DNA from: Dinghuibacter silviterrae
GTDB taxonomy: Bacteria > Bacteroidota > Bacteroidia > Chitinophagales > Chitinophagaceae
Direction of reading: 5' to 3'
Assembly: GCF_004366355.1 (NCBI RefSeq)
Contig: NZ_SODV01000002.1
Location: 474,768 to 538,767 of the forward strand
DNA: 64,000 bases
Numbering within the stretch: position 1 is the first letter of the stretch; the number at the start of each line of letters is the position of its first letter. Shown piece after piece: positions 8,339 through 20,374 of the stretch. Position numbers and translations under genes: made by a program. The notes under the pieces were generated by a model. The model saw nothing but the letters and a program-made list of their open reading frames with translations, was not told the DNA's origin and ran no database searches.

Positions 8339-10568
8339 ATACTTTGTGATCGGTTTCTGCCTTTGTGGGCTGGCGGCAGGCGATGCGGCCGCCCAGCCTG
8401 GCGGGGTCCGCGATACTTTGCCCTTGCCCACAGCCCGTTTCTCCACAGGCGACAGCGCCGCCTGGGCCGCCCCTGACTTTGACGACAGCCGCTGGGCGAC
8501 CCAACGGACGGGGACCGTCTGGCAGGAACAGGGGTACGAGGGCTACCACGGCTATGCCTGGTACCGCATCCATGTGCGTATCCCCTCTTCGCTTAGGGCG
8601 CATGCTTTTTGGAAGGATAGCTTACGAATATTCCTGGCTCATGTCAACGACGTTGATGAAACCTTTTTGAACGGGGTGCGCATCGGCAAAACGGGCGGCT
8701 TCCCCGAAGACCCTGGCGGCTACAAAAGCCGCTGGCCGCTGGTGCGGGAATACCACCTCCCGCTCAACGCGACCGGCATCCGTTGGGACCAGGACAATGT
8801 CCTGGCGGTGCGGGTGTATGACGGCGGTGGAACCGGGGGCATCTTTATGGGGCATCCGTTTATCGATATGTTGGAAAAAATAGATGCCGTAGACCTGGAC
8901 GTTCCCGCGGACTCGATCCGCTATGGGAGCGCCGCCACCGTTACCCTGACCGCCGGTAACCGGTTTGCCGTGCCGGTGCGTGGCGTCATCACCTATGGGG
9001 TCCGGGATGTGACCCAGGGTAAGGACATCGGGTCGCATACGGTTCCGGTGACGCTGAGCCCTTTCGGCACGCGCCGCTTTGCGTTCCACCTGCCGAACCG
9101 GCCGGGTCTGGAAGTACACCTGGCCTTTACCGAAGCGGGGAGCGGGTTGACCGTCGAACGCAGGATTTGGTTTCCGTATACGCTGACACCGGTGTCCCCG
9201 TTGTCGCCGCGCGTCAACGGTCCCCGGATCTACGGCGCACGACCCGGGTCTCCCTTTTTGTATAAGGTGCCCGTGTCGGGGGCACGGCCGCTGCGGTTCC
9301 GGGCCACGGGTTTGCCGGAGGGGCTGGTGATCGACGCGTCGGATGGCATCATCCGCGGAGCGGTCCCGGCGCCGGGCCGCTTCCCGGTGACCCTCGAAGC
9401 CTCCAACCGCTATGGCCGGGCCACGGCGCCCTTGACGATCGTTATCGGCGACACGCTCTCCTATACACCCGCCCTCGGCTGGAACAGTTGGAACTGCTGG
9501 GGGTTGACCGTCGATGACGAAAAAGTCCGCCGGTCCGCCGCGGCGTTTGTGCAAAAGGGTTTGGCGGATCACGGTTGGTCCTATATCAATATCGACGACG
9601 GCTGGGAGGCATCCGCGCGCGCGGCCGACGGCCGTATTGTCGCCAACGACAAATTCCCGGATCTGACCGCGCTGAGTGGCTGGTTGCACGCGCGGGGGTT
9701 AAAGTTCGGAATCTACTCTTCCCCCGGCCCCCTGACCTGTGGTGGCTTCCTGGGATCCTACGGACACGAGGCACAGGACGCGGCCACCTATGCCGGCTGG
9801 GGCATCGATTACCTGAAATACGACTGGTGCAGCTATGACGGGATTGCCGGCACGGACACTGCGCTCAATACTTTCCAAAAGCCCTACCGCGTCATGCAAA
9901 CGGCGCTGAGGGCACAACCCCGCGATATTTTGTACAGCCTTTGCCAATACGGAATGAAGGACGTCTGGACCTGGGGCGCTTCGGTAGACGGCCAGTCCTG
10001 GAGGACGACCGAAGACATCGAAGACACCTGGGAAAGCCTGCACCGGATAGGTTTTGGCCAATACCCTCTATACCCCTACGCGGGCCCGGGTCACTGGAAC
10101 GACCCGGACATGCTCACGGTGGGCTGGGTGGGCTGGGGCGCCACCCTTCGGCCCAGCCGGCTGACGCCCGACGAGCAATACACCCAGGTCAGCCTTTGGT
10201 CCCTGTTGTCCGCCCCGTTGCTCCTGGGCTGCGACCTTGGCAAGCTCGACGGTTTTACACTCGGCTTGCTGACCAACGACGAGGTGCTGGCCATCGACCA
10301 GGACGCCCTTGGCCGGCAGGCGCAACGCGTGGTCCCGGATCCGGGATACCAGGTATGGATAAAGCCCCTGGCGGATGGAAGTACGGCCGTGGGGGTTTTC
10401 AATATGGAGGATACGTGCCGGCCGGTCCGCCTGAACTGGGATTCTTTGGGCCTGGGCCGTTACCATATCCTCCGCGACGTTTGGCGGCAACGCGACCTGG
10501 GTGCCGTTCAAAAGACGCTTGACGCCACCCTGATGCCCCACGGGGTATTATTGGTTCGCCTTTATTGA
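8319..10568 (+). CDS. GH27 alpha-galactosidase with N-terminal beta-sandwich and Ig-like domains
   Basis: Up to 749 residues. No ATG is available; TTG 8319, GTG 8328 or GTG 8346 could start it, all upstream of a signal peptide ending near DAAAQ. Order: galactose-binding-like beta-sandwich (about 30-200), a He_PIG-type Ig-like domain (about 300-380, containing GLPEGLVIDASDGIIRG), then the GH27 barrel starting at LGWNSWNCWG. The nucleophile is expected in YLKYDWCSYDG (near residue 500) and the acid/base aspartate in WRTTEDIEDTW. The enzyme releases terminal alpha-galactose (or N-acetylgalactosamine) from glycans, probably in the periplasm. The start overlaps the preceding gene, and the stop shares bases with the next ATG (TGATG). 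Confidence 0.9.
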   Translation: MLRVCRKYFVIGFCLCGLAAGDAAAQPGGVRDTLPLPTARFSTGDSAAWAAPDFDDSRWATQRTGTVWQEQGYEGYHGYAWYRIHVRIPSSLRAHAFWKDSLRIFLAHVNDVDETFLNGVRIGKTGGFPEDPGGYKSRWPLVREYHLPLNATGIRWDQDNVLAVRVYDGGGTGGIFMGHPFIDMLEKIDAVDLDVPADSIRYGSAATVTLTAGNRFAVPVRGVITYGVRDVTQGKDIGSHTVPVTLSPFGTRRFAFHLPNRPGLEVHLAFTEAGSGLTVERRIWFPYTLTPVSPLSPRVNGPRIYGARPGSPFLYKVPVSGARPLRFRATGLPEGLVIDASDGIIRGAVPAPGRFPVTLEASNRYGRATAPLTIVIGDTLSYTPALGWNSWNCWGLTVDDEKVRRSAAAFVQKGLADHGWSYINIDDGWEASARAADGRIVANDKFPDLTALSGWLHARGLKFGIYSSPGPLTCGGFLGSYGHEAQDAATYAGWGIDYLKYDWCSYDGIAGTDTALNTFQKPYRVMQTALRAQPRDILYSLCQYGMKDVWTWGASVDGQSWRTTEDIEDTWESLHRIGFGQYPLYPYAGPGHWNDPDMLTVGWVGWGATLRPSRLTPDEQYTQVSLWSLLSAPLLLGCDLGKLDGFTLGLLTNDEVLAIDQDALGRQAQRVVPDPGYQVWIKPLADGSTAVGVFNMEDTCRPVRLNWDSLGLGRYHILRDVWRQRDLGAVQKTLDATLMPHGVLLVRLY

Positions 10569-13500
10569 TGATTTTTGAAAAACCAGATATCTTGACCAAG
10601 AGGATGTGTATGGGGCTGGTCGCTGCCAGCCTGTTGATGACCCAGGGCCTGCAGGCGCAATCGCCCTGGGTGCGGCTGAGGAACAGGCCTTCCACCCTGG
10701 GGTTGGAACAGGGGTACCTATCGTTATCGACACCCGATTTTCAGTTGACGCTCGTTCGGGCGTCGCAGACGGTGGCTTCGTTGCGGCCCGTTATTCTTCC
10801 GGGATTTGACTTTACGCCCGGGGATAGTCTGCTGGTGCGGAGCGGGAACGGGCTTTACCAACTGGGGGACTTGAACCTGCGGTTGAGGGTGGGGGAGGAT
10901 ACTGCGTGGACGAGGTATTCCACGGCGGCTGACCGGCATCCTGTGCGGGGACTGCCCGTAGGGCGCGCAGCGCCCGCGATGAGCTCTGCGCCCGCGATGA
11001 GCTCTGCGTCCGCGATGGGCTCTGCGTCCGCGATGGGCTCTGCGCCCGCGATGGGCTCTGCGCCCGCGATGGGCTCGGCACCCGCGATGGGCTCGGCGCC
11101 CGCGGGGGATTTGCGGCCCATGGGCTCTGCGCCCGCGGGGACCACATTGCTCGCTGCCGCCGACCTGGGACCCACTTTTCCCCAGAATATTCCGTTGAAC
11201 GTCGAAAGACGTTGGGAGGTACAGGACGGCCAGCTTGTCCTGGCTTTTGTCCTTAGGAATAAAGGGGACCGCCCCGTGGAGGTCGGCGCTCTGGGTATCC
11301 CCCTGATCTTTGACAACATCCTCGACGGGGAAAGCCTGGAGCAGGCACACGCCCGGAATGTTTTTTATGATCCTTATATCGGGAAGGACGCGGGTTACCT
11401 GCAGGTGACGCGCCTTAACGGGGAAGGGCCCGGTTTGCTGGTGACGCCTTCGGGGCATGCGCCATTCGAGGCGTACAATCCGCTGCTGGACGACCCCACG
11501 CCCCGAAGCGCCGCTTTCGAGGGGTTTTATGAGTGGATGGTTTGCAGCAAAGCCTACGCGGAGAAAGAATGGAAAAACGCCGAACCCTGGAACGAGCCGA
11601 CATCGATCGTTATAAAACCGGGGCAGGAGTACCGGGTCGCCCTCGCCTTTTCCCTTTGCCCCTCTGTGCGTTCCATCGACAGTACCCTGATGGCCCGCGG
11701 GCGGCCCGTTGCCATGGGGGTGCCGGGGTATGTGCTGCCGCAGGATGTGCAGGGAAAGTTGTTCCTGCATTATAGGGCACCGGTACGGTCATTTTCGGTG
11801 ACGCCCGATTCGACCGCCGTCGGCGGCAGCGGCCCAGACTCCGGCGGCAACCGCCCGGGCCCGGCCCTGGTGCTGCACGCCCTCGACACATTGCCAGGTG
11901 GCTGGGTGGCGTATGCCATCCAAGGCCGCACCTGGGGCCGTGCCCGTCTGACGGTCACCTACGAAGACGGGACCGAACAAACCATCCATTACAAGGTGAT
12001 CCAGCCCGAAGACAACGTCGTCCGGCATTATGGACACTTCCTGATGACCAGCCAGTGGTACGACCAGGCAGGGGACACTTTTCATAGGAATCCTTCCGTG
12101 ATCAGCTACGACAATACCCTGCACCGGCAGGTGACGGAAGATAACCGGGCCTGGATCGCGGGGCTGAGCGACGAGGCCGGGGCCGGCAGCTGGCTGGGCG
12201 CGCTGATGAAACAGGCGGTGCTCCCCGATAAGGCGGAGGTCTTGCAGTTGCAACGTTTTGTGGATTCGACCCTGTGGGGAAGGATACAATATGCGAACGG
12301 GCCGGAAAAATACGGGGTTCGGAAAAGTCTTTTTTATTATGAGCCGGAGGGCATGCCCGCGGGCACATACAGCACCGGCATCCACTACAAGACCTGGTCG
12401 GCCTGGCCCCTGAAGGAGGCCGCCTCGGTGGGACGCTCCTACAACTATCCACACGTGGCGGCGGCTTATTGGGTCATGTACCGTCTGGCGCGTTTTCACA
12501 AAGACCTGTTGCCGGCAGACAAATGGACGTGGTACCTGGGCCAGGCGTATGAAACCGCCATGGCGATGTTGCGACTGGCGCCGTATTATGCGCAGTTTGG
12601 TCAAATGGAGGGGACGGTGTTTTACCTGATCCTCCGGGACCTCCAGTCGGAAGGGATGATCGAACAGGCGAGGGTTCTGGAGACAGCCATGAAGGGCCGC
12701 GCCCTGCATTGGCGTTCGCTGCCCTATCCGTTTGGGAGCGAGATGCCCTGGGATTCCACGGGGCAGGAAGAGGTGTATGTGTGGTCCCATTACTTCGGTT
12801 TCCTGGACAAGGCGGACGTGACGCTCAAGGCGATCCTTGCCTATATGCCCACGATCCCGCACTGGGCCTATAACGGGAACGCCCGGCGGTACTGGGATTT
12901 TTTGTATGCAGGCAAAACGCAACGGGTAGAACGGATGATCCATCACTACGGATCTCCGCTGAATGCCTTGCCTGTGTTGGAAGCCTATTGTGAACACCCG
13001 GACGACTTTTATTTGTTGCGGGTGGGGTACGGAGGCCGGATGGGTGCGCTTTCCAACATCACAGAAGACGGTTTTGCGCCTTGCGCCTTCCATGCCTGGC
13101 CATCCACTTTGGCGAACGACGGCTACACAGGGGACTACGGGTCCGGCTTTTTCGGATATGCTGTCAATACCGGGACATTCATAGCCCATCATCCTGTGTT
13201 CGGATGGCTGGCTTATGGGGGGAACTTGTCCACGGAAGGCTCGCTCGTCCGCGTGCAACCAACCACCGCGGGCCGGTCTTCGGTGTTTATCGCCCCCGCC
13301 CGGCTGTGGGTGCGGATGAATGCAGGGCGGATCCGTACGTTGACGTACGATACCTTGTCCGGGGAGATACGGTTGCTACTTGACAGCGCGGATGCGGTCA
13401 CGCCCGATGGGTGGATGACCCTCGACGGCGCCTATACCGCGGTATACCCGATGGCGCGCGGTTCGTACAAGGTACCCTTGGGTACGGAGGTCATCCTGCG

Positions 13501-15958
13501 GCCCACCGCCAGTGCCGTCATCACCATCGACACAGCCCATCCCGCGGCGCGCATCCCCGCCACGCTCCATGGTATTTTTTTCGAAGAAATCAGTCACGGG
13601 GGTGATGGCGGTCTTTATGCGGAGCTGATCCAGAACCGGGGTTTCGAGGAAAGTACGATTCCCCAGGGGACACGGCTGGACAGCGGCTACCTGGTACCGT
13701 TTCCGGAGAAGCCGCATTTTATGCTGGAACCGCAAAAGACGGACTGGAAGATGGAGTGGCCGTATGTCAACGATCCGTGGCCGGGGTGGCACTCTGAAGG
13801 AAAGGTGACGTTGTCGCTCACGGCCGAGCATCCACTCAATTCCGCAACCCCGCACTCGTTGAGTGTGGAGGTCAGCGGTCAGGGGAGTGTCATCAATGAC
13901 GGGTTTTGGGGGATCAACGTCGTCAGCGGAGACAGTTATAAGCTGTCGTTTTATAGTCGTGGCGGTTCCTATACGGGGCCGGTCACGGTGTCCCTGCAGT
14001 CGGCGGATGGGTCGGCGTTGGCGACACATACGTTCGCGATGCGCGAGGCTGGCTGGCATCGATTCGCCTGCGTGCTAAAAGCCACGCGTACCGATTCCGC
14101 CGCGCGTTTCGTCCTTTCCTTTAAGGGGCAAGGAAAGCTGTGGCTGGACTTTGTCTCCCTTTTCCCTGAAAAAACTTTTAAAGGCCGCCCGAACGGCCTC
14201 CGGGACGACCTGGGCCGCCTGATCGCGGACCTCAAACCTGCCTTTGTCCGCTGGCCGGGCGGCTGTTATGCCGAGGGTATCACCATCGCCAGTGCGGCGA
14301 ATTGGAAAAAAACCATCGGGCCGGTGGAAAAGCGGCCCGAAACCTTTAGCCCCTGGGGCTATTGGAGCACCAATGGGTTCGGGTATGACGAATACCTCCG
14401 GTTTTGCGAAGACATCGGTGCTTCGGCCCTTTTCGTGTGTAATGTCGGCGTCTCCTGTGAATACCGGAGCGGGACGTATGTACCCGAAGACAGTTTGCAA
14501 CCGTATATCCAGGACGCCCTGGACGCGATCGAATACGCCATCGGACCCGTTACCTCCCCCTGGGGGAAGCGGCGCGCCCGGGCCGGTCACCCCGCGCCTT
14601 ATCCCCTGAAATATGTGGAGATCGGGAATGAACAACATGGCCCGAAGTACGCCAGCCGGTACAACCTTTTTTATGAGGCGATCCACCGGCGTTATCCAAA
14701 CATCACCCTGATTGCCAGCATGGGTATCGGGGACGTGAACCGGAATACCCTCCAGGGGATGAAGACCACGGAAATGGTGGACGAGCACGCGTACAAGGAT
14801 GCCTATTGGAGCTTGCGTAATACAGATCACTTTGACCGGTACAAACGCGGGCAGTGGGACATGTATGTCGGCGAATTCGCGACCAATGCCGGCGTGGGTC
14901 ATGGGAACCTGCGCGCCGCCCTCAGCGATGCAATTTATATGATGGGGATGGAGCGTAACGCCGACCTTGTCAAAATGTCCAGCTACGCGCCCCTCTTAGC
15001 CAACGTTCACGACGTGGACTGGCCGGTGAACCTCATCAATTTCGACGCGGCCCGCAGTTACGGACGTATCTCGTATTACGCAATCAGGATGTTCACCGAC
15101 AACCGGCCGGACGTCAACCTGCCGACGCAGGTTGACGTAGCGCCGGCGGGACATGGTAGCGCCGCCTTTAGCGGGGGCATCGGGTTGGCTACCTGGGATA
15201 CGCAGACCGAGTATAAGGATGTGGAGGTGTCTGTAAACGGCCGAAGCGCGTATCACAGCTCCAGTGAAAGCTTTGACACCGGTTGGTTAAAACTTCGCGG
15301 GACCTGGGAACCCACCGACAGCGGCGGTCTTGCCCAAAAAGCCGAGGGCGCCCAACTCCTGGCGTTGCTTAAGGGCCGCTCCTTCGATACCTATACATTG
15401 ACATTGAAAGCGCGCAAGCTCGGCGGCTATAATGCCTTTATTATTCCGTTTGCCGTCCGCGACAGCAACACCTTTCTGCGCGCGCACATCGGGTCTTATG
15501 TCAATGCCAATTGCGTGTTCGAATCGGTGACGGACGGGTATGAGGTGGCGGATATCACCAACCAGAAAAGGTTGCTCCATCCCATCGAAACGGGCCGCTG
15601 GTACACGATACGCCTGGAGGTGGGACGCGACAAGGTCGATTGTTACCTGGACGGGGAGCTGTTGATGTCGTACAAAGGACTTCCCACCCTTTTCGCGTTG
15701 TCAGGTAAAGAGGACAAGACCGGGGACGTGGTCGTGAAGGTGGTCAATGCCGGAGCGGACGCCTGCGCCACCCGCTTTGCGTTGCCCGGTTATGCGCTCA
15801 CCCGGTGGAGCCTGCTCACCGCACTCGGGCCGGAGTCCGAAAACTCCTTGGAGCACCCGGCGGCGTTTGTGCCCCATGACATAGAAAAAGCGGATACTGT
15901 CGTACCCGCTTTTTCCATTTCGGTGTTTCGGTTTACAGCTGTGTCTCGAAATAAATGA
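10568..15958 (+). CDS. DUF5695 - GH51 alpha-L-arabinofuranosidase fusion protein
   Basis: 1796 residues from ATG 10568, which overlaps the upstream TGA. A signal peptide ends near LQAQS. Residues ~35-965 match the DUF5695 type, thought to be a glycosidase-like fold, with the segment GYTGDYGSGFFGYAVNTGT. A hexapeptide repeat rich in A, P, M, G and S interrupts it at about residues 135-192. Residues ~980-1600 form a GH51 unit: HGIFFEEISHGGDGG, a CBM-like beta-sandwich, WPGGCYAEG, the acid/base EIGNEQHG (near 1351) and the nucleophile region YVGEFATN (near 1433). A concanavalin-like C-terminal domain follows. It probably removes arabinofuranose from the imported glycan. The last 26 bases overlap the convergent gene. 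Confidence 0.85.
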   Translation: MIFEKPDILTKRMCMGLVAASLLMTQGLQAQSPWVRLRNRPSTLGLEQGYLSLSTPDFQLTLVRASQTVASLRPVILPGFDFTPGDSLLVRSGNGLYQLGDLNLRLRVGEDTAWTRYSTAADRHPVRGLPVGRAAPAMSSAPAMSSASAMGSASAMGSAPAMGSAPAMGSAPAMGSAPAGDLRPMGSAPAGTTLLAAADLGPTFPQNIPLNVERRWEVQDGQLVLAFVLRNKGDRPVEVGALGIPLIFDNILDGESLEQAHARNVFYDPYIGKDAGYLQVTRLNGEGPGLLVTPSGHAPFEAYNPLLDDPTPRSAAFEGFYEWMVCSKAYAEKEWKNAEPWNEPTSIVIKPGQEYRVALAFSLCPSVRSIDSTLMARGRPVAMGVPGYVLPQDVQGKLFLHYRAPVRSFSVTPDSTAVGGSGPDSGGNRPGPALVLHALDTLPGGWVAYAIQGRTWGRARLTVTYEDGTEQTIHYKVIQPEDNVVRHYGHFLMTSQWYDQAGDTFHRNPSVISYDNTLHRQVTEDNRAWIAGLSDEAGAGSWLGALMKQAVLPDKAEVLQLQRFVDSTLWGRIQYANGPEKYGVRKSLFYYEPEGMPAGTYSTGIHYKTWSAWPLKEAASVGRSYNYPHVAAAYWVMYRLARFHKDLLPADKWTWYLGQAYETAMAMLRLAPYYAQFGQMEGTVFYLILRDLQSEGMIEQARVLETAMKGRALHWRSLPYPFGSEMPWDSTGQEEVYVWSHYFGFLDKADVTLKAILAYMPTIPHWAYNGNARRYWDFLYAGKTQRVERMIHHYGSPLNALPVLEAYCEHPDDFYLLRVGYGGRMGALSNITEDGFAPCAFHAWPSTLANDGYTGDYGSGFFGYAVNTGTFIAHHPVFGWLAYGGNLSTEGSLVRVQPTTAGRSSVFIAPARLWVRMNAGRIRTLTYDTLSGEIRLLLDSADAVTPDGWMTLDGAYTAVYPMARGSYKVPLGTEVILRPTASAVITIDTAHPAARIPATLHGIFFEEISHGGDGGLYAELIQNRGFEESTIPQGTRLDSGYLVPFPEKPHFMLEPQKTDWKMEWPYVNDPWPGWHSEGKVTLSLTAEHPLNSATPHSLSVEVSGQGSVINDGFWGINVVSGDSYKLSFYSRGGSYTGPVTVSLQSADGSALATHTFAMREAGWHRFACVLKATRTDSAARFVLSFKGQGKLWLDFVSLFPEKTFKGRPNGLRDDLGRLIADLKPAFVRWPGGCYAEGITIASAANWKKTIGPVEKRPETFSPWGYWSTNGFGYDEYLRFCEDIGASALFVCNVGVSCEYRSGTYVPEDSLQPYIQDALDAIEYAIGPVTSPWGKRRARAGHPAPYPLKYVEIGNEQHGPKYASRYNLFYEAIHRRYPNITLIASMGIGDVNRNTLQGMKTTEMVDEHAYKDAYWSLRNTDHFDRYKRGQWDMYVGEFATNAGVGHGNLRAALSDAIYMMGMERNADLVKMSSYAPLLANVHDVDWPVNLINFDAARSYGRISYYAIRMFTDNRPDVNLPTQVDVAPAGHGSAAFSGGIGLATWDTQTEYKDVEVSVNGRSAYHSSSESFDTGWLKLRGTWEPTDSGGLAQKAEGAQLLALLKGRSFDTYTLTLKARKLGGYNAFIIPFAVRDSNTFLRAHIGSYVNANCVFESVTDGYEVADITNQKRLLHPIETGRWYTIRLEVGRDKVDCYLDGELLMSYKGLPTLFALSGKEDKTGDVVVKVVNAGADACATRFALPGYALTRWSLLTALGPESENSLEHPAAFVPHDIEKADTVVPAFSISVFRFTAVSRNK
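10970..11143 (+). repeat. 18-bp in-frame tandem repeat inside the DUF5695 domain
   Basis: Seven full 18-base units (10970-11095) with the core GCGCCCGCGATGGGCTCT, differing by single substitutions, are followed by interrupted copies to 11143. They encode a hexapeptide of type A-P/S-A-M-G/S-S. The unit keeps the frame, so copy number can vary without breaking the gene. Units 1-2 carry AGC where the others carry GGC, and units 6-7 end in TCG. This suggests stepwise duplication. It is not a CRISPR array, because there are no spacers. Confidence 0.9.
15884..15915 (-). terminator. probable terminator of the BlaI operon, inside the GH51-fusion coding sequence
   Basis: The arms GAAAAAGCGG (15884-15893) and CCGCTTTTTC (15906-15915) are perfectly complementary over 10 bases with a 12-base loop. 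On the minus strand the hairpin begins 17 bases after the stop of the 262-residue gene and ends in a T-run, as expected for an intrinsic terminator. The A- and T-tracts make it symmetrical, so it could also act on the plus strand. There it lies within the last codons of the 1796-residue gene. Confidence 0.6.
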
Positions 15959-16721
15959 CGAGAAGGTCCCTGTGGATCCCGAATTGTTTTTCGGCTTTGT
16001 CTGCGTTCATATACCGGCTTTCACGTCCGCTGATCTGGCTTCTTTTATAGCGCCTGTTTACCTCATCACCGGTCATTTCCGTCTTGCCGTTGACAAGCAG
16101 GTGCGCGGTGGTGTCAAAGGACATATAGGCCACGTTGGGATATCTGCTATAAGACACATAGGCCTTTCCGTTGATGACGAAATAGATCTGGTCGGGGGCG
16201 GCTTCAAAAGCATTTTTCAAAAAGGTGCTACCGTTTCCGGTCGCCTCCTTCAAGAATTTTTCGAAGGCCTCCGCCCTGGAAGGGGATCCTTCCCGCTGGA
16301 AGTCTTCCTCCTGGGAGGGCGTCAGCTCGGAACTATTGCTGAAAGAGTACTTGTTTCCCCCGTGACCGGCGAGCCCAAGGAACTGGAGCTGCGCACCCCA
16401 GCCATTTTTTTGACCTTCTTCGGAGAGGGTGGCAGAAAAGATGTCGTCGAGGTTTTTGTACTCGTCTTTGGAAACCAACAGGTGGGCCTTCAACGTTTCG
16501 GTACGGCCCGGTGCGGGCAACTTTAGCGTATAATAACCGTGCTCGTCGGTTACGGCTTCCGTATTCGAAAGTTGGTCTTTGACCGTGGCGCCCGCCAATG
16601 GCTGGAGCGTGGCGCCGTCTACGACGTAGCCGTATAGACGGTAGACTTCGTTGCTTTGCGCGAACGATGCCCGGCTTAAGCTGATCGTCAGCAGGAATAA
16701 TAAGGAAAGTTTGTTGATCAT
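15933..16721 (-). CDS. secreted stand-alone copy of the M56-linked C-terminal sensor-like domain
   Basis: 262 residues. A signal peptide (MINKLSLLFLLTISLSRASFAQ) is followed by a carboxypeptidase-regulatory-like domain (RLYGYVVDGATLQPLAGATV) and a conserved tail with DQIYFVINGKAYV, TGDEVNRRYKRSQ and a GI..D-type end. The whole mature part aligns by eye with the C-terminal ~230 residues of the two M56 proteases upstream, but it has no protease or membrane anchor. The gene is only 2 bases after the second protease and is the last of the operon. It could compete for, or pre-bind, the ligand of the proteases; that role is inference. It overlaps the convergent GH51 fusion gene by 26 bases. Confidence 0.75.
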   Translation of the reverse strand: MINKLSLLFLLTISLSRASFAQSNEVYRLYGYVVDGATLQPLAGATVKDQLSNTEAVTDEHGYYTLKLPAPGRTETLKAHLLVSKDEYKNLDDIFSATLSEEGQKNGWGAQLQFLGLAGHGGNKYSFSNSSELTPSQEEDFQREGSPSRAEAFEKFLKEATGNGSTFLKNAFEAAPDQIYFVINGKAYVSYSRYPNVAYMSFDTTAHLLVNGKTEMTGDEVNRRYKRSQISGRESRYMNADKAEKQFGIHRDLLVIYFETQL

Positions 16722-16723
16722 GG

Positions 16724-18301
16724 CTATTTATTTAATCCGACAACGAAGATGTCTTCATCAATCCCATATTTCTCCTTGGCTTTCGAGGCGGGGAGGGTAG
16801 AACAATAACCACTCAACTGATTTCTTTTGTACGTCTTATTGAGTTCCTCCCCTGTCATCCGGATTTTGCCGTCGACAAGGATCGTATGTACCGTGCCTTC
16901 CTGGGATGCCCAACCGCCGTGCATAACGACATAGGTCTGGTTGCTAATGACGAAATAGATCTGGTCGGGGGAGGCTGCAAAGACGGCCTCGACTTCCCGT
17001 TGCTGTTTTTGTCTTTGAATCAGTTTGTCAAAAATCTCCTCGCGGGAGGGCGACCCCTCGTTGTGCAATGCTTCTTCTTCGGAAGGCATCGCCATGTGGC
17101 TATTGGAAAAACTTCTGCGGTCCGGGCCACTCCCGGCCAGCCCTATGAGCTGAAGATCGCTGTTGAATTTCGGGTTGATTCCCAGGTTTGCCAGCGGTAC
17201 CTGGAATTTGTCCTGGAAATGATCATACCCGTCCTTGGAGACGACCACGTGGAATTTCATGGTGTCGGTTTTACCAGGCGGCACGGGAAATGTCAACCTA
17301 AAAAAACCGTCGGCGCCCGTCTTCGTCGACAGACCGGATACGTCGTCTTTGACATCCGCGTCCGCCAGGGGTTTGAGCGTGGCGCCGTCGACGACAAATG
17401 CATAAAGCCGGTAGGTGTGGTCGTCACCCGTTTTCGGTACGCGGTGCCGGCTGGCTGCGATCAGCAGCAGGAGTAATAAGGGGAGTGCAAACAGGAAACG
17501 GGCACCTTGTTTCGTCCCGGATCTTCTTTTGTTCATCATGGCTATTCTGTTATAGAGGGGTGAAAAATTAAAGGGATTGCTCAGCACCGGCACGCCTACC
17601 CCGGATACCTTCAACAACAAATACTGGTATTGTTTGGGATCGGCCCCATTGTCCAGGACCGCCTGGTCGGCCAGGAATTCGAGGTTCTGCCGGATGGACC
17701 GGTCCATCAGCCAGGCAAAAGGATTCCACCATTGCAGGACCAAGAGGACCTGGCTGAGGAGGATATCCAACGTATGCCGCTGTTCGATGTGCGCGGTTTC
17801 GTGGTCTACGATGCGGTGAAAGTCCGCGGACGTCTGGGCCGATGGGTGGAAGAAAATACTGTGTCCGAAGGAAAAGGGCGCCAGCGGGTAGGGGAGCAGG
17901 AACAACCGGATACGGCCCCGTTCGCCGGCAGGAACGGCTTTGAACCGGAGGCGCGTCAGGGATATGACCTGTATCGACAGGCGGAGGACCATGAGGACCA
18001 TACCCGCGAACAGGACGTATTCCAGGAGGGGCAAATGGTGGCTGGGGGCCGCTGTGGGGGCCGCCGCGACCGGCATTTCGGGGCCGGGGTTGCCTTGGAC
18101 GTAGACCGTAAACCGCTCTACCTTTTGGGGCCAGAGCCCGCTGGTATCCATCAACGGTGCGAGCAGGCAAAGCAGGATAGCGGTAGACAGGTACAACCGG
18201 TTTGCCTTGTAAAAGGTCAGGCGGACCAGGCAAACCCGGTAGAAGAGGTAGGTCAGGGCGAGACCCAGACCCGCCTGGAGGCTGTAGGATAGAAGCGTCA
18301 T
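16724..18301 (-). CDS. BlaR1-like M56 metalloprotease with C-terminal sensor-like domain (copy 2)
   Basis: 525 residues from ATG 18301, chosen because MTLLSYSLQAGLGLALTYLF matches the start of its upstream paralogue; a longer frame exists but lacks a sensible N terminus. N-terminal membrane helices are followed by the zinc site HETAH (about 167-171) and the third-ligand segment NLEFLADQ, both typical of M56. A further transmembrane helix precedes a carboxypeptidase-regulatory-like domain (RLYAFVVDGATLKPLADADV) and the tail DQIYFVISNQTYVV. BlaR1 proteases cleave BlaI repressors after ligand sensing; here no penicillin-binding domain is present. The gene lies 31 bases after copy 1 in the same operon. 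Confidence 0.88.
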   Translation of the reverse strand: MTLLSYSLQAGLGLALTYLFYRVCLVRLTFYKANRLYLSTAILLCLLAPLMDTSGLWPQKVERFTVYVQGNPGPEMPVAAAPTAAPSHHLPLLEYVLFAGMVLMVLRLSIQVISLTRLRFKAVPAGERGRIRLFLLPYPLAPFSFGHSIFFHPSAQTSADFHRIVDHETAHIEQRHTLDILLSQVLLVLQWWNPFAWLMDRSIRQNLEFLADQAVLDNGADPKQYQYLLLKVSGVGVPVLSNPFNFSPLYNRIAMMNKRRSGTKQGARFLFALPLLLLLLIAASRHRVPKTGDDHTYRLYAFVVDGATLKPLADADVKDDVSGLSTKTGADGFFRLTFPVPPGKTDTMKFHVVVSKDGYDHFQDKFQVPLANLGINPKFNSDLQLIGLAGSGPDRRSFSNSHMAMPSEEEALHNEGSPSREEIFDKLIQRQKQQREVEAVFAASPDQIYFVISNQTYVVMHGGWASQEGTVHTILVDGKIRMTGEELNKTYKRNQLSGYCSTLPASKAKEKYGIDEDIFVVGLNK

Positions 18302-18332
18302 AAACTGTCCTTTTTCGATGGGTGGTTGCTGT

Positions 18333-19937
18333 TCAAGGCTGTGGTGCCTTGAGTTTGATGACAAAGAGGTTTTCGTCGATCCCGTATGTATTTTCGGCGT
18401 TCCCGGCAGGGAAGGAGCCGACTGCAAATTGAAGCTGGCTTCTTTTGTACATCTTATTAACCTCCTCTCCGGTCATCCGGGTCTTTTCATCGACCAGGAA
18501 AAGGTCCACCGTAGTGTCAAAGGAAGCCGACGCGTGTGGGACAACAGCATAGGACTTGCCGTCGATCACAAAGTAAATCTGATCGGGCGACGATGCAAAA
18601 ACCTTTTCGATGTCACTACGGCTAGGCGGTGCCGTATCCTTGAAGAATTTGTCAAAAATATCCTTTCGGGCCGGGGAACTCATCTGTTTCAGGGCGCGTT
18701 CCTGTTCGGGAAAGAGCACGGTATTGTCGACAAAGCCACTTGCATTCTTATCCGGTTTCAGGCTTGTAAGACCGATATATAAAAGGCTTGCTCCCAGGCC
18801 CGCTTGTTTGGAGACGGTCTTTAGCGAACTGTGTACGGTGTAGTAACCGGTGTCATATCCTTCCTTGAACGCAAGCACGCGTATGTTTGCGGTATCGGTA
18901 GGTTCGGAAAAGGGAATGGTCAGCATAAAAAACCCCTTGCCATCAGAGCGCACCGACCTACCGGACACCTTGTCGTAAATGGTGGCCCCTTCCAACGGCC
19001 GTAATGTGGCGCCGTATACGGTGAAGCCGTACAGGCGGAGCAGGCTGTGGTTGTCCTGCGGATGGATGCGGTGCCGGCTGGCCGCAGCCAACAGCAGGAG
19101 TAAAAGAGGAAGGGCAAAAAGGAAACGAGTCCCCTGTCTTCTTCCCGAGCGTTGTTTGTTCATCATGGCTATTCTTTTTTTGAGGGGTGAAAAGTTAAAT
19201 GGATTGCTCAGGACAGGTCCCGCTATCCCGGATACCCTCAGCAGTAAATACTGATATTGCCGGGGATCCGCGCCTCCTTCGAGGACGTTCTGGTCCGCCA
19301 GGAATTCGAGGTTTTGACGGACGGATTGGTCGAGCAGCCAGGCGGCAGGATTCCACCATTGCATGATCAGGAGGACCTGGCAAAGAAAAATGTCCAGCGT
19401 GTGGCGCTGGTTGATGTGTGCGGTTTCGTGTTCTACGATACGGTGAAAGTCCTCCGACGTCTGGACAGATGGGTGGAAAAAAATACTATGTCCGAAGGAA
19501 AAAGGAGCCAGCGGATAGGGCAACGCCATGAGTCGGATACGCCCGTTCCGGGCGACAAGGGTAGCTTTTCGACGGATCCGGATCAGGGAAGCCGTCTGGA
19601 AGAGGAGGCGGAGCAACATGACGGTCATGCCCGCCAGAAGGAAGTATAAGGGCCAAGGTCTATGGGGGGTGGCTTGTACAATGGGGCCTACCCTGGCAGG
19701 CGACAACACCGGGGCGGCCACGGGAGCCGTCTGCATATAAAAAGTGATGTGCTCCACTTTCTCCGGCCAAAGGCCGCTGGTGTTCAGGAGGGGCAGGAGC
19801 AGGCACAACAGGATAGATCCTGCGAGGAACAATCGGTTCGCCTTGTAGAAAGTCAGGCGCAGCAGGAACGCTTGGTAGAAGACATAGGTCAGGAGGAGGC
19901 CAATACCCGCCTGAAGGCTGTAGGAAAGGAGATTCAT
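18333..19937 (-). CDS. BlaR1-like M56 metalloprotease with C-terminal sensor-like domain (copy 1)
   Basis: 534 residues. N-terminal helices (about 1-20, 35-55 and 98-118) are followed by the HETAH zinc motif at 170-174 and the putative third ligand E211 in NLEFLADQ. A hydrophobic helix (about 271-286) is followed by an extracytoplasmic carboxypeptidase-regulatory-like domain and a tail with DQIYFVIDGKSYAV and TGEEVNKMYKRSQ. It is clearly paralogous to the next gene, with near-identical N-terminal 60 residues. Its ATG overlaps the stop of the BlaI gene (ATGA), so the two are probably translated together. By family knowledge it should inactivate the BlaI-type repressor by proteolysis on a signal. 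The signal is unknown. Confidence 0.9.
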   Translation of the reverse strand: MNLLSYSLQAGIGLLLTYVFYQAFLLRLTFYKANRLFLAGSILLCLLLPLLNTSGLWPEKVEHITFYMQTAPVAAPVLSPARVGPIVQATPHRPWPLYFLLAGMTVMLLRLLFQTASLIRIRRKATLVARNGRIRLMALPYPLAPFSFGHSIFFHPSVQTSEDFHRIVEHETAHINQRHTLDIFLCQVLLIMQWWNPAAWLLDQSVRQNLEFLADQNVLEGGADPRQYQYLLLRVSGIAGPVLSNPFNFSPLKKRIAMMNKQRSGRRQGTRFLFALPLLLLLLAAASRHRIHPQDNHSLLRLYGFTVYGATLRPLEGATIYDKVSGRSVRSDGKGFFMLTIPFSEPTDTANIRVLAFKEGYDTGYYTVHSSLKTVSKQAGLGASLLYIGLTSLKPDKNASGFVDNTVLFPEQERALKQMSSPARKDIFDKFFKDTAPPSRSDIEKVFASSPDQIYFVIDGKSYAVVPHASASFDTTVDLFLVDEKTRMTGEEVNKMYKRSQLQFAVGSFPAGNAENTYGIDENLFVIKLKAPQP

Positions 19938-20296
19938 GACCGTCCTTTTTCGATGAGGTGAAGGATTTCTTTGAGTTCCGCCGGGCTCAGCTTTTTCTTT
20001 TCCACAAAAAAATTGACCATTTCCTTGTAGGAGTTGGCGAAGTAGTCCTTGACAAAACCCGTCATGAAACGGTTTTTGTATTCTTCTTCGGTCATGGTGG
20101 CTTTGTAGATATACACTTTACCCATCAGCCGGGACGTGACGAACCGTTTTTTTTCCAGGTTCTTAACGGTCGATGCCAACGTCGTGTAAGGGGGAGCGGG
20201 GGAATCGACATGGTCCAGGAAGGCCTTGATGGTGCCTTCGCCGGTTTTCCATATCGCCTTCATCGCGTCTTCTTCCTGGGGGGATAATTTTTCCAT
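19934..20296 (-). CDS. blaI: BlaI/MecI/CopY-family transcriptional repressor
   Basis: 120 residues, the usual length for BlaI. The N-terminal winged helix begins MEKLSPQEEDAMKAIWKTGE and contains the family segment PPYTTLASTVKNLEKKRFV, which carries the recognition helix. A C-terminal dimerisation half follows. BlaI dimers repress their own operon until cleaved by the partner M56 protease. Two perfect palindromes lie directly upstream of its start. It overlaps the first M56 gene by 4 bases and heads a four-gene unit, blaI-M56-M56-sensor-like protein. Confidence 0.93.
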   Translation of the reverse strand: MEKLSPQEEDAMKAIWKTGEGTIKAFLDHVDSPAPPYTTLASTVKNLEKKRFVTSRLMGKVYIYKATMTEEEYKNRFMTGFVKDYFANSYKEMVNFFVEKKKLSPAELKEILHLIEKGRS

Positions 20297-20299
20297 GTC

Positions 20300-20333
20300 T
20301 ACGAACTTTTCGTAAACCTACGAAAGATTCGTA
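20300..20333 (-). promoter_or_regulatory. double palindromic operator upstream of blaI
   Basis: Two copies of TACGAA-N3-TTCGTA occur at 20300-20314 and 20319-20333. Both have perfect 6-base arms, and their centres are 19 bases apart. The first ends 4 bases from the blaI start codon. A tandem pair of dyads next to the repressor gene is the usual layout for BlaI/MecI autoregulation, although the motif differs from the classical TACA/TGTA sites. Repressor binding is inferred. Confidence 0.8.
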
Positions 20334-20374
20334 ATTAATCAAATTAATTTTGTTTTTATTTATTTTAGACGCGG

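Follow-up and report, generated by a model that had tools for sequence, protein, structure and literature searches.

A BlaI/M56 repressor-protease unit of Dinghuibacter silviterrae that encodes a protease-free, putatively secreted copy of its own sensor domain

What could a membrane-bound repressor-protease switch gain from a detached copy of its own sensor? The question is raised by a locus of Dinghuibacter silviterrae (Chitinophagaceae), found in a stretch of 64,000 nucleotides (contig NZ_SODV01000002.1, positions 474,768 to 538,767), which is referred to here as the window. Switches of the BlaR1 type are known chiefly for sensing beta-lactams. The minus strand of the window carries, as open frames in this order, a blaI repressor gene, two genes for M56 membrane proteases (M56-A and M56-B) and a gene for a protein with a putative signal peptide that repeats the C-terminal sensor domain of the proteases. 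An earlier note on this DNA had grouped these four genes into one unit, and this is upheld by their tight spacing (a 4-bp overlap of blaI and M56-A, a 31-bp gap between M56-A and M56-B, and a 2-bp gap before the secreted gene) and by a single operator and promoter-like element before blaI. The unit contains only blaI, two M56 genes and the secreted gene. What the DNA itself shows is how the unit is built, where its operator sites lie and how conserved they are, how the copies arose by duplication, and that the catalytic motif is intact. The reading preferred here, tentatively and as plausible rather than probable, is that of an autoregulated BlaI/M56 relay in which a co-induced soluble receptor damps or times the response.

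The case for a shared sensor rests on the C-terminal ~230 residues of the three downstream proteins, on whose similarity the earlier note had staked its proposal. The three domains are homologous, with pairwise identities of 43% (E 3e-62), 38% (4e-47) and 41% (5e-58) over ~235-242 columns, the alignments outscore 500 shuffles by 66 to 84 standard deviations, and the motifs that the note had quoted are found in them. Its suggestion that a carboxypeptidase-regulatory-like domain replaces the penicillin-binding domain agrees with the profile searches, in which the secreted copy just passes the Pfam carboxypeptidase-regulatory cut-off (32.5 bits, cut-off 32.2) and the two M56 proteins stay far below it (15.2 and 14.0). 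Beta-lactam sensing was considered and rejected: neither Pfam nor NCBIfam finds a penicillin-binding or class D-like domain in the window proteins, and the BlaR1 beta-lactam-sensor profile matches the protease part only, at 21.1 bits against a cut-off of 400. A penicillin-binding domain is likewise missing from the Pfam families, 17 in all, that were detected in 64 M56 proteins, a set drawn from the window, from locus L062 and from the operator loci described below, with three proteins cut off by contig ends excluded.

The secreted gene itself appears to be a remnant of a receptor gene. DNA relics show, at the level of sequence, that the receptor was tandemly duplicated twice. Direct repeats spaced 1618-1636 bases link M56-A to M56-B, and a 21-base relic of the blaI 3' end stands before M56-B (20/22 columns identical; score 16, reached by 0/1000 shuffles). 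The start of the secreted gene, ...ATAGCCATGATCAACAAAC, equals the stretch that codes for RIAMMNK ahead of the last membrane helix in both M56 genes, with 22/25 identical bases to M56-A and 20/25 to M56-B (0/1000 shuffles each). Beyond this scar, the DNA of the signal peptide aligns with gaps to that of the last helix at 67/84 and 59/79 identical positions (0/1000 shuffles), and at the protein level a match this good arises in 5 and 9 of 1000 shuffles. The simplest history would thus make the secreted gene a third M56 copy, deleted entirely up to the loop before the last membrane helix, in which an internal methionine became the start and the last membrane helix the signal peptide. The description of the third copy as a protease-free secreted version of the sensor-like domain is supported by homology and by its M56-derived start, with the signal peptide assigned by eye. 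In a FastTree phylogeny, M56-A groups with M56-B at 0.85, and the three window copies separate from the others at 0.96. The protease halves of M56-A and M56-B are 67% identical, whereas the sensor halves are 41% identical, which argues that the sensor has changed faster.

A natural counterpart exists in S. aureus, where, according to an excerpt of PMC9834060, BlaR1 cleaves itself in the loop before its last helix (Ser283-Phe284) and the sensor is shed by signal peptidase. The scar loop of the secreted gene corresponds in position to this autocleavage loop; by a parallel of our own, it is as though a shed sensor had been fixed as a gene. As in the shed fragment described in that excerpt, the soluble sensor begins after the last helix; unlike that fragment, it has its own gene and is not made by cleavage.

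The remaining components can be compared with those of the BlaR1 relay. The repressor matches Pfam Penicillinase_R with an E-value of 5.8e-25 (88.3 bits, cut-off 22.6), and the two proteases match Peptidase_M56 with 40.5 and 44.9 bits (cut-off 31), with HExxH intact in both. HExxH, NxE and then D are kept in 64/64 aligned M56 proteins, most of which also have an FNFS..R loop ahead of the last helix (N in 55, the second F in 49, R in 63). By eye, the M56 hydrophobic segments are as expected for a membrane topology with a periplasmic C-terminal sensor. S. aureus BlaR1 is a gluzincin with HExxH...E that cuts BlaI at N101-F102 (excerpt of PMC9834060). Compared by eye with this cleavage site, the BlaI tail in the window holds N-F (VNFFVEKKKLSP). 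The same pair occurs in 42/66 BlaI proteins of operator loci, with T, A or S before F in 23 and A before Y in one, such that F is present at the putative cleavage site in 65/66. Because HExxH, NxE and D are kept throughout the M56 set and N-F occurs in BlaI, both in the window and in most operator loci, we infer that M56 cleaves BlaI in the same relay as BlaR1.

The site at which BlaI would act is a pair of tandem dyads, TACGAAnnnTTCGTA, which adjoin blaI at 20300-20333, lie 19 bp apart and have 0 mismatches. The earlier note ended its interval at 20333, the exact outer end of this tandem operator, which it did not mention. Perfect dyads are rare: the 6.5 Mb genome has three, two at the operator and a third within a mutY-like open frame. 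At up to 3 mismatches, the tandem pattern occurs in 117/394 genomes of the family (43/101 genera), as compared to 2/394 for a reversed control pattern; class-wide, at up to 2 mismatches, it occurs in 15/395 genomes, 12 of them outside the family. Five of these 12 were fetched, and 5/5 sites head blaI-M56. Seventy tandem sites were examined, comprising 60 fetched regions (from the places listed) and seven loci, namely the window and six with the sensor domain. Sixty-two of the 70 sites lie 1-29 bp before the likely blaI start, 40 of them at 3 bp, and 61/62 have M56 next, the remaining one sitting at a contig edge. The relay is thus of a kind common in Chitinophagaceae. The element TTTG-N18-20-TAnnTTTA overlaps the dyads in 7/8 blaI upstream regions checked; at 20313..20343, where it resembles the -33/-7 promoter pattern of Bacteroidota, it is presumably the blaI promoter, and since it overlaps the dyads, bound BlaI would block it. 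CopY-type repressors have been assigned the site TACANNTGTA (excerpt of PMC7253601), and by comparison with it the tandem operator here would be a variant site. A search of D. silviterrae itself, allowing up to 3 mismatches, turned up no further tandem site, and therefore the secreted protein is the only predicted non-regulatory output of the relay. A wider regulon of single dyads in this genome was rejected: with up to 1 mismatch they occur at 10 places, as opposed to six for the reversed control, and of the seven 1-mismatch dyads six fall within open frames, while the seventh lies outside any frame and away from any start.

Coordinates of the unit and of the relics within it (window positions)
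Feature	Position	Strand	Remarks
Distal operator dyad TACGAATCTTTCGTA	20319..20333	no strand	perfect dyad
Proximal operator dyad TACGAAAAGTTCGTA	20300..20314	no strand	3 bp before blaI ATG
Promoter-like TTTG-N19-TAGGTTTA	20313..20343	-	resembles Bacteroidota -33/-7 pattern
blaI repressor	19934-20296	-	120 aa, Pfam Penicillinase_R
M56-A membrane protease	18333-19937	-	534 aa; HETAH 19416-19430; sensor domain 18333-19052
Relic of blaI 3' end before M56-B	18304..18324	-	matches 19939-19960
M56-B membrane protease	16724-18301	-	525 aa from ATG; HETAH 17789-17803; sensor domain 16724-17425
Deletion scar at secreted-gene start	16709..16733	-	RIAMMNK codons of M56 (19154-19178, 17527-17551)
Secreted protease-free sensor copy	15933-16721	-	262 aa; signal peptide residues 1-21 by eye

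Taken together, these components suggest the following relay. BlaI would occupy the two tandem dyads that overlap its own promoter. Engagement of a periplasmic M56 sensor would be transferred across the membrane, and the cytoplasmic zinc protease would then cut BlaI, probably at N-F, which would induce the whole unit, secreted copy included. The free soluble sensor domain could in turn draw the shared partner away from both membrane sensors, resulting in negative feedback. A damping role is proposed by analogy and with modest confidence, because a co-induced soluble copy of a receptor domain would most simply compete with the receptor. The earlier note had envisaged either a decoy or a ligand carrier. 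The shared domain and the common unit would also suit a carrier: as a co-receptor, the soluble domain would capture some molecule or protein in the periplasm and hand it to the membrane sensors. Homologous copies, however, are generally expected to compete for a site rather than to hand over, and in the other loci tested the operon contains one M56 only and lacks a soluble copy; we hold the carrier to be quite improbable.

In a structure model of the secreted protein, residues 3-101 match the N-terminal extension (NTE) domain of SusC (PDB 9hfj; Z 9.6, rmsd 2.2, 79 aligned) and residues 5-99 match the transthyretin-like (TTL) domains of carboxypeptidase D (Z 9.7-9.8); 9hfj is also the best PDB sequence match of the sensor, albeit a weak one (E 0.045). 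A Foldseek search with the same model gave no match below E 0.001. The first ~100 residues of the sensor thus match, in the model, a transthyretin-like beta-sandwich of the SusC NTE/CarbopepD_reg_2 fold; the remainder carries no assignment. In its strand-helix order and its VDGK...YG pattern, the sensor tail resembles half of a Plug module, and the homologue from genome G030 continues with Plug-like segments. A Plug nature of the tail is not claimed, as hhalign gives it a probability of only 32%, and Pfam finds neither Plug nor STN in the window proteins. Among the 64 M56 proteins, Pfam (E 0.01) finds Plug in 32, CarbopepD_reg_2 in 11, CarboxypepD_reg in 6 and Por_Secre_tail in 6, from which it follows that sister sensors are often built from parts of TonB-dependent receptors. 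The Por_Secre_tail-like domain, a type IX sorting signal, is not what one would expect on a protease of the inner membrane; judging from their ends, the M56 proteins of L107, L111 and L113 are examples.

The resemblance to SusC gives weight to a different role for the secreted copy: it may be what the relay puts out rather than a regulator, an NTE-type protein of the periplasm that is made when the sensors report trouble with the TonB or outer-membrane receptor machinery and that acts on this machinery. This is unlikely on balance, though to be taken seriously given what the operator heads elsewhere, a regulon predicted from sites alone. Eight of the 70 tandem sites head genes other than blaI. 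Secreted CarboxypepD_reg proteins of ~380 aa follow the operator in L107, L109, L111 and L113; in three of these blaI-M56 follows in the same unit, and in L109 a second site follows. Elsewhere the operator heads GLPGLI/Porph_ging genes with an ~890-aa receptor-like protein (L104, L105, L134, L164/L186, L171/L180 and L181), and ~930-aa CarboxypepD_reg receptors (by Pfam in L165/L185, L170 and L226, with L170 just under the cut-offs; by resemblance also in L166, L167, L169 and L182). One ~930-aa receptor site lies in G030, which has the closest relative of the window's unit. In addition, the operator heads a TlpA-like protein in L110 and an M56 gene without a visible blaI in L183, and a 3-mismatch site in L184, which overlaps the end of an AAA-type frame, is probably due to chance. 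Elsewhere, then, the operator stands before genes for secreted and outer-membrane proteins whose N-terminal domain is of the same kind, and the N-domain of the secreted copy matches the SusC NTE domain. Because such proteins are the predicted outputs elsewhere, an output role is not far behind damping. On the other hand, a BLAST comparison with the L107 protein recovers residues 8-81 (30% identity, E 8e-4), with the rest at chance level (E 3.6), and the secreted copy derives from a receptor, not from an output gene.

The GLPGLI/Porph_ging operons under this operator were seen in six genomes, and Pfam lists Porph_ging as being of unknown function. D. silviterrae has GLPGLI and CarboxypepD-type receptor-like genes at L187:1-2109 that resemble the regulon of other genomes; that 3.6-kb locus contains no TACGAA dyad at up to 2 mismatches.

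The distribution of the sensor bears on the damping reading. A four-row sensor profile, run against 394 genomes of the family, found the domain in 8/394 genomes, D. silviterrae included. All 8 matches in the seven other genomes lie in M56 proteins, 7/8 with blaI directly upstream; four of the 8 are partial, three of them covering the N-part only and one (L061) the C-part only, and L061 has another kind of blaI without the tandem operator. The one match without blaI upstream is L062:2691-7425 (genome G277), where a sensor-bearing M56 has neither blaI nor tandem operator within the 10-kb locus and an OMP_b-brl_3 receptor gene stands next. Among 66 M56 C-terminal parts in 65 loci, a gene that copies the sensor beside M56 occurs only in the window, the only other neighbour match (L133) being a large protein of 1,169 aa; likewise, two M56 genes in a tandem-operator unit were seen only in the window.

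A class-wide search (seven-row profile, 395 genomes) matched 13/395 genomes. Two of these, G725 and G657, from one genus of another family, encode stand-alone relatives of 238 and 228 aa (L219:5517-6233 and L220:5616-6302) with a signal-peptide-like start, in which the domain is matched to about position 208-216 of 232. Among the sequences compared, the closest to them is the M56 tail of L100. Each of the two genomes carries an operator-blaI-M56 unit elsewhere, and no dyad at up to 4 mismatches was found in the 160 bp upstream of the stand-alone genes. The other 11 matches are D. silviterrae, G030, G015 (a 1086-aa frame) and eight partial ones in 588-791-aa proteins without M56. One of the partial matches, L227, is an STN/CarbopepD_reg-like protein that Pfam places behind an ECF sigma and FecR gene; L227-L232 are N-part matches in ~590-660-aa proteins behind sigma-/FecR-like genes, L228-L232 by resemblance. 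A tie of the domain to M56 is hence seen in the family of D. silviterrae, with 8/8 outside matches, but not in G725 and G657. These relatives, outside the family, partly present the situation that the earlier note had named as a refutation of its own reading, a secreted gene away from M56 neighbours.

Several of these observations weigh against a damping role. Of the 394 family genomes sampled, D. silviterrae alone was seen to have the secreted copy, and it could be a functionally unimportant by-product; the only other genome of the genus that was sampled (91% complete) has neither domain nor operator. Around the stand-alone relatives in G725 and G657, about 5.5 kb of sequence contains neither M56 nor blaI, and the soluble form can therefore have an M56-independent role. 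The structure models are of little help: that of full-length M56-B has a pLDDT of 48 and is useless, and that of the secreted protein is weak (mean pLDDT 65; 70-89 over the first 70 residues, 55-62 over residues 71-100). A truncated copy left without function by tandem duplication would account for its simple deletion origin, for its presence in a single genome of the family and for the rarity of the domain itself, yet we consider it improbable. The 262-aa frame is intact with a signal peptide that is plausible by eye, and the sensor core is as well preserved as that of the M56 proteins, even though only about 40% identity is left between the copies: of the 18 positions constant in four outside homologues, 14 are kept in the secreted copy, 14 in M56-A and 12 in M56-B.

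Several known systems resemble this unit in part. BlaR1-BlaI and MecR1-MecI of Staphylococcus and Bacillus likewise pair a Penicillinase_R repressor with a downstream M56 gluzincin whose extracytoplasmic sensor is C-terminal, and share N-F in BlaI and, ahead of the last helix, a loop that contains Phe and Arg. In contrast, the Gram-negative unit described here has no penicillin-binding sensor and no beta-lactamase, and instead has tandem TACGAA dyads, two proteases and a soluble sensor. The first ~100 residues of this sensor match the fold of the SusC NTE of Bacteroidota TonB-dependent transporters (PDB 9hfj), but here there is no barrel, and the domain belongs to a protease of the inner membrane and to a free protein. 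In an excerpt of PMC7782687, which also covers the role of STN in cell-surface signaling, the NTE of SusC had no known function, yet its loss left a strain unable to grow on levan.

A further parallel is cell-surface signaling of the FecA-FecR type, which combines an STN domain with an anti-sigma factor. Here too, an envelope event would be reported to a transcription factor, with receptor genes among the likely targets elsewhere; unlike FecA-FecR, a protease and a repressor replace the anti-sigma and sigma factors, no STN match occurs in the window proteins, and the Pfam scan of the unit revealed no ECF sigma/anti-sigma pair. Among the matches listed in the open-access literature, neither BlaI/M56 units of Chitinophagaceae nor the combination of a two-protease relay, a tandem operator, an NTE-like sensor and a genetically fixed soluble sensor was described. 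PMC12578637 and PMC12204202 share terms with the unit, but M56 is a reagent number there, one BlaI is an author's name, and none of the passages retrieved concerns the repressor. The single parts are already known, and it is their combination that we rate as new.

D. silviterrae has a second blaI-M56-M56 unit, without TACGAA dyads (L034:4105-7673; C1:3072104-3075672). Its first M56 has Plug-like (below cut-off) and TonB_C parts, and its M56-like protein (28.4 bits, cut-off 31) is fused to an Amidase_3 cell-wall hydrolase (1e-36), with an OMP_b-brl_3 receptor next; this fusion of a protease to a peptidoglycan amidase looks unusual. In the window, an ABC-2 permease gene ends 78 bp upstream of blaI, and the final 26 bp of the secreted gene are shared with a convergent gene that has an arabinofuranosidase domain. 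Window positions 10565-15958 form a single open frame of 1797 aa, comprising DUF5695 and alpha-L-arabinofuranosidase; a stretch of APAMGSA repeats lies close to the beginning of this frame.

More broadly, tandem-operator BlaI/M56 units might constitute a proteolysis-based route of signaling from the outer membrane to the cytoplasm, in which an inner-membrane protease wearing periplasmic SusC parts, namely NTE and Plug modules, reads the state of TonB-dependent receptors and sets the expression of receptor and GLPGLI genes via BlaI cleavage, with D. silviterrae adding a free, "pre-shed" regulator; this general picture is speculative and, for now, doubtful. The units form a large BlaR1-type set without a detectable penicillin-binding domain, whose sensors are often composed of SusC-receptor parts, and their defined operator makes target genes predictable in other genomes. 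The case also shows, base by base, how a membrane receptor may become a soluble one via deletion. The presence of an NTE-like domain on a protease, together with a free copy in the same operon, makes the binding partner directly testable, and the secreted sensor copy thereby offers a concrete handle on the workings of these little-studied switches.

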